DNA of 64,000 nt from Candidatus Poribacteria bacterium (GTDB lineage: Bacteria > Poribacteria > WGA-4E > PCPOR2b): NCBI GenBank assembly GCA_028819845.1, contig JAPPKS010000021.1, forward strand, positions 1 to 64,000, written 5' to 3'. Positions 32,931-36,092 of the stretch are shown here, in pieces. Every line of letters starts with the position of its first letter. The stretch's first letter is position 1. Made by a program: the position numbers and the translations under genes. The notes under the pieces are model-generated. The model was not told the origin of the DNA. It saw only the letters and a list, made by a program, of their open reading frames with translations, and made no database searches.

Positions 32931-33188
32931 ATGACTTACGTCATCACTGAGCCGTGCATTGATGTCAAGGACACCGCCTGCGTGGACGTATGCCCTGTTG
33001 ACTGCATTCACCCTACATCTCAGGAAGAGGACTTTGAAAACGTCAAGCAGCTTTATATCGATCCCGAAGAGTGTATTGATTGCAATGTGTGTGAACCGGA
33101 ATGTCCCGTCGAAGCAATCTTCATGGACGAAGATGTCCCGGAAAAATGGGCACACTTCACGCAAATCAACGCGGATTATTTCCAGTAG
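32931..33188 (+). CDS. seven-iron ferredoxin, tandem copy 1
   Basis: Soluble electron carrier of 85 residues. Cysteines C9, C17, C21, C25, C48, C51, C54 and C58 follow the pattern of [3Fe-4S][4Fe-4S] ferredoxins: C9, C17 and C58 for the 3Fe cluster; C21, C48, C51 and C54 for the 4Fe cluster; C25 spare. It is acidic, as expected. AAGGAGG lies 11 bases before the ATG. It is the first of three nearly identical genes; this copy has [12 protein letters not shown] and EKWAHFTQ. Confidence 0.95.
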
Positions 33189-33326: not shown

Positions 33327-33584
33327 ATGACTTACGTCATCACCGAACCGTGCATTGATGTCAAGGACACCGCCTGCGTGGACGTATGCCCTGTTGACTG
33401 CATTCACCCTACATCTCAGGAAGAGGATTTCGAAAACGTCAAGCAGCTTTATATCGATCCCGAAGAGTGTATTGATTGCGCTGTATGTGAGCCGGAGTGT
33501 CCGGTCGAAGCAATCTTCATGGACGAAGATGTTCCGGAAGAATGGGAACACTTCACCAAAATCAATGCGGATTATTTCCAGTAG
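33327..33584 (+). CDS. seven-iron ferredoxin, tandem copy 2
   Basis: Near-identical to copy 1 with all eight cysteines kept. Differences: N52 to A (ECIDCAVC) and EEWEHFTK for EKWAHFTQ near the C-terminus. It has its own AAGGAGG ribosome site in the duplicated leader. No separate promoter is evident, so it is probably read from 32760-32788. Confidence 0.95.
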   Translation: MTYVITEPCIDVKDTACVDVCPVDCIHPTSQEEDFENVKQLYIDPEECIDCAVCEPECPVEAIFMDEDVPEEWEHFTKINADYFQ

Positions 33585-33723: not shown

Positions 33724-33981
33724 ATGACTTACGTCATTACCGAGCCGTGCATTGATGTCAAGGACACCGCTTGCGTGGACGTATGCCCGGTTGACTGCAT
33801 TCATCCTACATCACAGTCAGAGGACTTTGAAAACGCCAAGCAGCTTTTTATCGATCCTGAAGAATGTATTGATTGCGGTGTGTGTGAACCAGAATGTCCG
33901 GTCGAAGCAATCTTCATGGACGAAGATGTTCCGGAAGAATGGGAACACTTCACCAAAATCAACGCGGATTATTTCCAGTAG
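33724..33981 (+). CDS. seven-iron ferredoxin, tandem copy 3
   Basis: Third copy; eight cysteines kept. It is the most diverged: S for E after TSQ, NAKQLF for NVKQLY and ECIDCGVC. Position 52, between two 4Fe ligands, is N, A and G in the three copies, which could tune the cluster; this is inference. A DUF971 gene follows by 99 bases. Confidence 0.95.
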   Translation: MTYVITEPCIDVKDTACVDVCPVDCIHPTSQSEDFENAKQLFIDPEECIDCGVCEPECPVEAIFMDEDVPEEWEHFTKINADYFQ

Positions 33982-34080
33982 CAATAGTTGCTCACAAAAT
34001 TTCAGACGGGTAGTGATTTCAGCTTTGATGGTTACAAGACTGGGATAACACCCGTTTCTGAAGTTATTGTGGAGCAAGTC

Positions 34081-34416
34081 ATGATGGTGCATACCATGGT
34101 ATATAAGCCAACCCAGATAAAGCGTTTTTTAAACGGGATAGCCATTCAATGGAGCGACGGTCATCGCAGCGAACATTCCCATAAATTGCTGCGGCAAAAG
34201 TGCCCGTGCGCCCGCTGTAAAGCAGTCCGAGAGGATGAGAACCCGCTGCGGGTGTTGCCTTCCGAAGATTTTGTTGAGAATCTTAAAGTCGTTAATATTC
34301 AACCCGTTGGCAGGTATGCAATCCGCTTGACTTGGAACGACGGACACAAAACGGGCATTTATCCCTTTGAATTGCTGCGATCTCTTAACACAACCCCCGC
34401 CAATCCACCGTCATAA
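34081..34416 (+). CDS. DUF971 protein
   Basis: Protein of 111 residues from the chosen start. KPTQIKRFLNGIAIQWSDGH, HKLLRQKCPCARC and WNDGHKTGIYPFELLR are the hallmarks of the DUF971 / GBBH-like N-terminal domain, often linked to iron-sulfur cluster handling. The CPCARC motif is kept. An open frame extends to 33988, but GGAG lies 8 bases before the ATG at 34081 and the family begins there; the longer frame runs into the ferredoxin repeat. Its place after three ferredoxins supports a role in Fe-S metabolism. Confidence 0.85.
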   Translation: MMVHTMVYKPTQIKRFLNGIAIQWSDGHRSEHSHKLLRQKCPCARCKAVREDENPLRVLPSEDFVENLKVVNIQPVGRYAIRLTWNDGHKTGIYPFELLRSLNTTPANPPS

Positions 34417-34451: not shown

Positions 34452-35093
34452 TCACCCTTCTGTCACCCCTTCTTCAGAGAGCAACCGAACCACAAGATAA
34501 GCATTAGGTGTTTTCTCTTCCGCTCCAATCTTTTCGCTTAAATCTCGGCACGTGTCCCAGTAACGCGCGTAATCAATGGGTTTATAAAGTCGGCGTTGAC
34601 CGATAAATGTCTTGCGGCAACACGCCAATTCACGCCCATTGTCGATTGGATATCCCCACACCCGGCAAATCAATGGACGATGTTCGTAAACCGAACAGAC
34701 TCCCCCAATAAGCATCGGGCATTCCGCCTCCGGTTTCCCTTTCAACACTTCGACCGATTCCATGCCAGCGTCCCTCGTCATCCGTTCATGGGAAAATCCG
34801 ATTTGCTCAAGCTTTCGAACGGAGCGCTCGGCTTTTTTGCGGATATGCTCCTGTATCTCTGGAGGGTGTTTTTTCAGTCCTACCTTGAGGTCTTGTCCTT
34901 CTATTTCACTGATTAACATCGTCGCCGTGTTGCGGCAGCAATCATAACAGGTGGAGGGACACGGGAAGTTGCCCCGCGCTTTGTACAACCGCTGTGTCTC
35001 AAGATGCACCTCTCTCATCAGATGCCGATACTGTTCCACTACCGAGTTTGAGTTGGCGTCTTCGTTATCCTTCTGAATCTCTATCGGTTGCAT
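34452..35093 (-). CDS. YkgJ-type cysteine-cluster protein
   Basis: Protein of 213 residues with the cysteine pattern of the YkgJ / UPF0153 family (CPSTCYDCC, then CPMLIGGVCSVYEHRPLICRVWGYP, then CC). The family is thought to bind zinc or an Fe-S cluster; activity unknown. The helical middle (about 70-120) is longer than in the shortest members. It follows the cold-shock fusion gene by 24 bases on the same strand. Confidence 0.8.
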   Translation of the reverse strand: MQPIEIQKDNEDANSNSVVEQYRHLMREVHLETQRLYKARGNFPCPSTCYDCCRNTATMLISEIEGQDLKVGLKKHPPEIQEHIRKKAERSVRKLEQIGFSHERMTRDAGMESVEVLKGKPEAECPMLIGGVCSVYEHRPLICRVWGYPIDNGRELACCRKTFIGQRRLYKPIDYARYWDTCRDLSEKIGAEEKTPNAYLVVRLLSEEGVTEG

Positions 35094-35117: not shown

Positions 35118-36092
35118 CTAATCCCTCGTTCTTTTTTCGGACGGAATTGCCTGAAACTTGCAGACGGCATGCCTGAAAACAACAACTTTAGAACCGTTTT
35201 CCAAAACTATCTTAATTTCGAATGGGCTGACCCAATCCACCAAACCCCGAAAAATCTCCCCCTCGCGCATAACTACTTCGATAGGGTATTCCTCCTTACG
35301 CGCAAGCTGAATTTCCCGTGTGTCGATTTGGCAGCACTCCTTCTGAGAGTTAATCGGCTTTAAATTTTGCGATTTAATCTCCTCATCGTAACGCATGAGC
35401 GCATGTATAGCATCCTCGTCTTCAGCTTTATAACAATATTTTACGTCCATCTTGGGAATTTCCAGGCCTTCTTCTTCTCCTTGCAGCGTAAAAGTGGATT
35501 GCGTGAAATCGCTAATCGTCATAGGGCACTGCTCGTGATTGTACAGCCCGAAAACCATGGATGTTTGCAGCCGGATTTGCTTTTGCATGTATAAGGTGCC
35601 GAACGTAACACGTTCAGTTTTATCGAAGCTAGGTTTAGACTGCGCACCGGACGCTGCTATTTCCTCAATCAGCTCATCTGCTGCATCGTCCGGACTGGAA
35701 GATGGCAGTTCAACGGATTGTTCAGATTTCCGGGCGCTAGACGATGCAACTGACGCCGGCCGAATCGGTTCTTGAAACGATACCGGATTATCTCCATCAG
35801 CAGTTTCGCTTTGTTCGCGTGAAGCGAATCTTGGGTAGTCACGAGGAATTATCGCCTTGCCTTGACGCAACCACTTTTGCTCAAGTTGTGTAAGCAGGAC
35901 CTCAACGTTTCGCGCCACTAGCCCCCGCTTGCCCTCGGTAATTTCGTATTTGACCCGTTGTCCTGCGCCAAGCTCGTCGTCCGCCCAGTTAATTGCAGAG
36001 ACGTGCAAAAAAACATCGGCTTCGCCGTTGTCTTGGGCGATAAATCCGAAGCCTTTGTCTTGGTTGTAATATTTAATGCGACCTGTTGGCAT
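35118..36092 (-). CDS. cold-shock domain fused to Sm/Hfq-like domain(s)
   Basis: RNA-binding protein of 324 residues. Residues 1-66 are a full cold-shock domain with RNP1 KGFGFI (13-18) and RNP2 VFLHVS (27-32). A disordered Ser/Glu-rich linker runs to about 160. Residues about 262-316 read like an Hfq/Sm fold: MREGEIFRGLVDWVSPFEI matches the Sm1 bend and VVVFRHAVCKF matches the Sm2 strand of Hfq (YKHAI). Residues about 172-224 (MVFGLYNHEQ..., FTLQGEEEG, MDVKYCYK) may be a second, weaker Sm-like unit. Cold-shock and Sm domains on one chain are not a standard bacterial architecture to my knowledge. The gene lies 68 bases after a long-chain acyl-CoA synthetase gene. Confidence 0.75.
   Translation of the reverse strand: MPTGRIKYYNQDKGFGFIAQDNGEADVFLHVSAINWADDELGAGQRVKYEITEGKRGLVARNVEVLLTQLEQKWLRQGKAIIPRDYPRFASREQSETADGDNPVSFQEPIRPASVASSSARKSEQSVELPSSSPDDAADELIEEIAASGAQSKPSFDKTERVTFGTLYMQKQIRLQTSMVFGLYNHEQCPMTISDFTQSTFTLQGEEEGLEIPKMDVKYCYKAEDEDAIHALMRYDEEIKSQNLKPINSQKECCQIDTREIQLARKEEYPIEVVMREGEIFRGLVDWVSPFEIKIVLENGSKVVVFRHAVCKFQAIPSEKRTRD

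Follow-up and report, generated by a model that had tools for sequence, protein, structure and literature searches.

The gene analysed here lies within the window, a stretch of 64,000 nucleotides from a Candidatus Poribacteria bacterium (contig JAPPKS010000021.1), and is an open reading frame on the minus strand that runs from 36092 to 35118, starts with ATG and encodes 324 residues. The reading frame itself, its full-length conservation and the alignment of its orthologues indicated that the gene (35118..36092, minus strand) is complete and encodes, in order, a cold-shock domain (CSD), a disordered linker, a first Sm/Hfq unit, a second linker and a second Sm/Hfq unit. The N-terminal CSD that an earlier note had proposed from the sequence was readily confirmed. 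Residues 3-64 (35901..36086, minus strand) matched Pfam PF00313 at 4.5e-20 and 71.7 bits against a cut-off of 27, with the RNP1 (KGFGFI) and RNP2 (VFLH) motifs intact, and Y8, Y9, F17, F28 and H30 were invariant in the alignment of 23 orthologues. The modeled CSD was also close to CspA, CspC and CspE in structural comparisons (Foldseek TMt 0.86-0.94).

The linker that follows (residues 67-163; 35604..35894, minus strand) begins with a conserved segment at residues 67-84 (LxxxExxxLxQGKxxIPR) and continues as an S/P/Q-rich region whose length varies (alignment gaps) and which is predicted to be disordered (AlphaFold2 (AF2) pLDDT below 50 at residues 81-160). Unit 1 (residues 164-222; 35427..35603, minus strand), delimited by AF2 and hhalign, has the signature YxxKQI-x3-T-x-M-x-F ... 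KYCYK. It is separated from unit 2 by a linker of two short predicted helices (residues 223-257; 35322..35426, minus strand; AF2 secondary structure). Unit 2 (residues 258-315; 35148..35321, minus strand) was identified by Pfam Hfq_1, a PDB profile search and hhalign, and its signature, GE-x3-G-x2-DW-x-S ... VVVFRHA, includes the equivalent of the YKHA motif of Hfq. The whole protein has a net charge of -13, much of it in the linkers, and such acidity is unusual for a general RNA chaperone.

Taken as a single sequence, residues 258-313 matched Pfam Hfq_1 (2.4e-4) and Pfam Hfq (4.7e-3), in both cases under the curated cut-off. The scores against the strict Hfq models were 17.0 bits for PF17209 (cut-off 27) and 14.9 bits for TIGR02383 (cut-off 61.7), and for this reason we do not class the protein as a strict Hfq. 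Many of its orthologues exceeded the Hfq_1 cut-off. When a profile of the tandem built from 30 relatives was searched against the PDB, the best matches were 5dy9 (5.5e-6), MJ1435 (6.8e-6) and Caulobacter Hfq (7.1e-5), all over unit 2; nearly all the significant matches were to Hfq, and those to NusA were weak. Comparison by hhalign with an Hfq profile gave 4e-10 for unit 2 and 3.6e-5 for unit 1, with column-shuffled unit-1 controls above 0.1; the profile was built from five Hfq sequences, and this comparison complements the PDB profile search and does not replace it.

AF2 modeling of the whole chain, based on the 23-orthologue alignment, predicted the CSD, disorder at residues 81-160 and two alpha1-beta1-beta2-beta3-beta4-beta5 units at residues 164-222 and 258-315. 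Both units have the Hfq topology in this prediction, unit 1 with high pLDDT. The tandem modeled alone with 30 diverse relatives reached a pLDDT of 92.4 and a pTM of 0.87, and therefore the predicted mutual arrangement of units 1 and 2 is a confident one. Among the best 50 Foldseek matches of the tandem model in the PDB, all were Hfq with the exception of FMRP (two) and the Spt5 KOW domain (one); the whole-chain model retrieved Csp structures first and Hfq next.

Unit 1 is the more diverged of the two. Its direct comparison with unit 2 was marginal (E 1.3e-3, probability 18%), and its homology consequently rests on Hfq and on L073, a 96-residue single-domain Hfq-like protein of an outlying Poribacterium, rather than on unit 2. 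The match of unit 1 to L073 by hhalign was 3.5e-9 (shuffles above 0.1), and L073 itself passed the cut-off of 27 bits for both Hfq_1 (40.6 bits) and Hfq (29.5 bits). Based on these profile matches, units 1 and 2 can both be placed in the Hfq/Sm fold group. The earlier note had called the C-terminus Hfq-like, had offered the middle of the chain as only a possible second Sm fold and had suggested structure prediction and profile comparison with Hfq. By both approaches the two units are of Sm/Hfq type: the C-terminal assignment holds, residues 262-316 form an Sm beta-sheet in the prediction, and the middle unit is a definite Sm fold in the model. Sequence profiles and modeling thus support a predicted fold of one CSD and two Sm/Hfq units in a single chain. 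We ruled out a false Hfq of the FlgV type, as fold prediction and profiles here indicate Sm/Hfq; BB0268/FlgV, formerly called an Hfq homologue, has a different structure with two transmembrane segments (PMC11607428).

Of the 73 sampled genomes of the window's order, 68 encode the full architecture in a single open frame, by our own count from a full-protein profile search, and the orthologues compared were 44-60% identical. Such full-length conservation excludes chance as an explanation. A complete fusion was also present in a genome of another family (G062), and in G061 two ends of the gene sit at the ends of two contigs. A genome of a further family (G063) encodes a 195-residue protein with a CSD and a single Hfq unit bearing a QKHALKY motif (L110:2619-3203, minus strand). 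It is the minimal form of the fusion and represents either a natural intermediate or a fusion that arose in parallel. In families f7 and f8 the Hfq tandem has no CSD and is often preceded by a long N-terminus that is basic and RG-rich. Searches for the fusion outside the Poribacteria gave only two insignificant matches in plasmids (E 0.1 and 3) and none in viral contigs, and the matches listed for phages covered the CSD alone. A scan of genome contigs, with a reach of close relatives, returned matches in Poribacteria only.

Directly downstream of the fusion gene, after a gap of 24 bases and on the same strand, is a gene for a metal-binding ykgJ-type CxxCxxCC protein (34452..35093, minus strand; Pfam PF03692 1.7e-4, 22.7 bits against a cut-off of 23). 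A gene of this type was directly 3' of the fusion on the same strand in 8 of the 12 relatives examined, and it is probably a co-transcribed partner. Convergent to these genes are a syntenic GBBH-like_N (DUF971-type) gene (33988..34416, plus strand; Pfam PF06155 2.3e-24), also near the fusion in most of the 12 relatives, and three tandem open reading frames for near-identical 85-residue ferredoxins (32931-33188, 33327-33584 and 33724-33981, plus strand; Fer4 1e-9). A ferredoxin gene was close to the fusion and convergent, as in the window, in 10 of the 12. In one other genome (L104) two consecutive ferredoxin genes occupy the syntenic position. Of the two neighbours pointed out in the earlier note, ykgJ is conserved and the acyl-CoA (fatty-acid) ligase is not. 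No Rfam family, such as a cold-shock thermosensor, was detected in the window, and promoters and terminators near the gene showed no excess over the shuffled expectation.

The genome from which the window derives contained no Hfq or LSm protein over the curated cut-offs. The usual neighbour of hfq is miaA, and no hfq-like open reading frame was found beside miaA in this genome or in four others of the phylum. A separate canonical Hfq or LSm was consequently rejected for the window's genome. Besides the CSD-Hfq fusion, this genome carries a tandem paralogue that lacks the CSD (G000:C26) and a CSD protein of ordinary Csp size (G000:C22). Across the phylum, Hfq_1 matches over the cut-off were found in 22 of 85 genomes, and nearly all Hfq-family matches were in frames of about 158 residues or more, which correspond to tandems or fusions; G060 and G002, which encode short proteins of a single domain, were the clear exceptions. 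Two short proteins (L088:949-1305 and L074:1478-1882, both plus strand) each combine a coiled-coil-like N-terminal part with one Hfq_1 domain (34 and 33 bits, respectively), and L088 sits just 5' of a nadC-like gene. The earlier note had named a separate canonical hfq, with the fusion absent in relatives, as evidence against its reading; the window's genome has no such hfq, and the fusion is nearly universal in relatives. Apparently, the fusion replaces the ordinary small Hfq across the order.

The residues that contact RNA in Hfq are unequally retained in the two units. In an alignment of 30 relatives, the FRHA motif of unit 2 was strongly conserved (F 29/30, R 26/30, H 27/30). Relative to the proximal U-pocket of Hfq, unit 2 keeps H57 (27/30), a basic residue at K56 (R 26/30) and an aromatic residue at F42 (25/30), whereas unit 1 keeps only K56. 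In unit 1, K171 and Q172, both in helix 1, and K222 were identical in all 30 relatives. Gln8 of Hfq is replaced by Asp, Gln41 is variable and the tyrosine and lysine positions of the distal face are unconserved, with a near-invariant E279 occupying a distal-face position. RNA specificity should therefore differ from that of E. coli Hfq.

Based on these data, we favor the reading that the protein is the main Hfq-type RNA-binding protein or chaperone of the order, with a built-in CSD and a duplicated Sm subunit in a three-domain chain, and we consider this reasonably probable. The N-terminal CSD would bind and melt single-stranded RNA with low specificity, and the flexible linker would tether it to a pair of diverged Sm/Hfq subunits folded into a single rigid block. 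Several tandem blocks, most simply three, may close into an Sm ring, a pseudo-hexamer in which units 1 and 2 alternate. Unit 2 would supply a proximal pocket like that of Hfq (R307-H308, in place of Hfq K56-H57) and unit 1 conserved basic and aromatic surfaces (K171-Q172, K214 and K218-Y-C-Y-K222). With the U-rich ends of RNAs held in such a ring and folding of the bound RNA prevented by the CSDs, mRNAs and sRNAs could be annealed more readily or protected. We infer that each part binds RNA, that rings form with their subunits in alternation and that the protein acts as an sRNA matchmaker; for the CSD, binding is suggested by its intact RNP residues, and for the proximal face of unit 2 by the FRHA motif.

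Cyanobacterial Hfq acts through the pilus ATPase PilB as a protein scaffold, without binding RNA. By analogy, the Sm tandem could be a scaffold for protein-protein contacts that has lost RNA binding, leaving the CSD as sole nucleic-acid binder, perhaps to dock RNA to YkgJ or ferredoxin. The closest Pfam family of the tandem is Hfq_1 ("Hfq related"), whose control matches include Synechococcus, the classic RNA contacts at Q8, Q41 and the distal site have not been retained, and the conserved neighbourhood of ykgJ and ferredoxin points to dedicated partners. However, the FRHA of unit 2 (the YKHA equivalent) retains its histidine and basic residue in most relatives, the Lys and Gln of helix 1 in unit 1 are invariant, and the N-termini of the CSD-less paralogues are long, basic and RG-rich, as is typical of RNA binders. 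On balance, we think a pure scaffold unlikely.

Hfq and CSD proteins are both known to act at intrinsic terminators, and the protein might mainly be a transcription antitermination or termination factor, in which a CspE-like CSD melts nascent terminator hairpins and the Sm tandem binds the U-tract. Consistent with this, the best NCBIfam match of the CSD was the CspE antiterminator, though under the cut-off of that model, and the tandem gave weak NusA profile matches and a Foldseek match to the Spt5 KOW domain. Attenuation of the SgrS terminator by cspD has been reported (PMC9765468). The NusA and KOW matches were, however, far weaker than those to Hfq and reflect generic small beta-barrels, and the neighbourhood has no transcriptional gene, so that we consider this role quite improbable. 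Finally, the genome is a draft assembly, but a sequence fusion artefact or mis-assembled gene has a negligible chance of being correct and was ruled out, since the same architecture occurs in one open frame throughout the order, including in assemblies of one contig.

Relatives of the tandem were also found with genes that resemble defence systems. A third tandem-Hfq clade fell on one side of a branch with 100% support; it is on a long branch and its exact place is uncertain. In this clade, stand-alone tandem-Hfq genes (L030:1075-1695, plus strand; L033, L038 and L039) adjoin type IIG restriction-methylation-like genes and are also beside polysaccharide-export-like (SLBB-type) genes. Elsewhere in the clade, the tandem is the C-terminal part of larger proteins: GmrSD-like proteins (L032, L080 and L081) and sacsin/TmtA-like (HATPase) proteins of 1208 and 1244 residues (L077:2580-6203, minus strand, and L079:27-3758, plus strand, respectively). 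L080:2224-4887 and L081:1890-4622 (both minus strand; GmrSD_N 4e-32 and 5e-34) end in the Hfq tandem followed by a CSD, the reverse of the order in the order-wide CSD-Hfq protein, and so CSD and Hfq have apparently been joined at least twice. We tentatively speculate that in Poribacteria the duplicated Hfq chain with its CSD serves the order as a general RNA chaperone, an asymmetric pseudo-hexamer with unwinding domains, and that the tandem was later recruited for nucleic-acid recognition on restriction-like and TmtA-like defence effectors, where a CSD was joined independently; this wider picture is possible rather than probable.

Many bacteria rely on Hfq as their central RNA chaperone, normally a symmetric homohexamer built from one small subunit. 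Its replacement throughout an order by a chain of duplicated, diverged Sm units with a CSD, if correct, would be a bacterial parallel to the divergence of eukaryotic Sm/Lsm subunits. It would also unite on one polypeptide the two principal small folds that serve bacteria as RNA chaperones, and how they cooperate would be directly testable. The fusion also suggests where to seek sRNA biology in the sampled genomes of the phylum that have no canonical Hfq.

An early survey of Hfq distribution may reportedly have mentioned, for some bacteria, unusual proteins of a double-Sm kind. In the open-access papers searched, there was no report of Hfq in tandem, of a protein carrying two Hfq domains or of Hfq fused to a CSD. 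The protein shares with bacterial Hfq (PF17209; TIGR02383) the Sm fold with its N-terminal helix, the YKHA-like Sm2 motif (FRHA) in unit 2 and profile homology; unlike Hfq, it has two diverged Sm units and an N-terminal CSD, scores under the Hfq cut-offs, has lost Gln8 and the distal-face residues, and is not encoded at miaA. The cyanobacterial type, Hfq_1 (PF21979)/NF047718, is the best Pfam match of unit 2, and its known members are small single-domain proteins without a CSD or duplication. The archaeal Hfq-like MJ1435 and 5dy9, the best PDB sequence-profile matches of the tandem, likewise differ in being 71-residue, single Sm domains without a CSD. CspA and CspE have a closely similar fold to the CSD with its intact RNP1 and RNP2, but are stand-alone proteins of about 70 residues, whereas here the CSD is one domain of 324 residues. 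Burkholderia Hfq2, at 175-216 residues, is likewise an enlarged Hfq-type protein, with no CSD reported (PMC7074383); the present protein has a CSD and two Sm units. Compared with these systems, the CSD-Hfq protein combines known folds in a new domain architecture, with conservation across the order.
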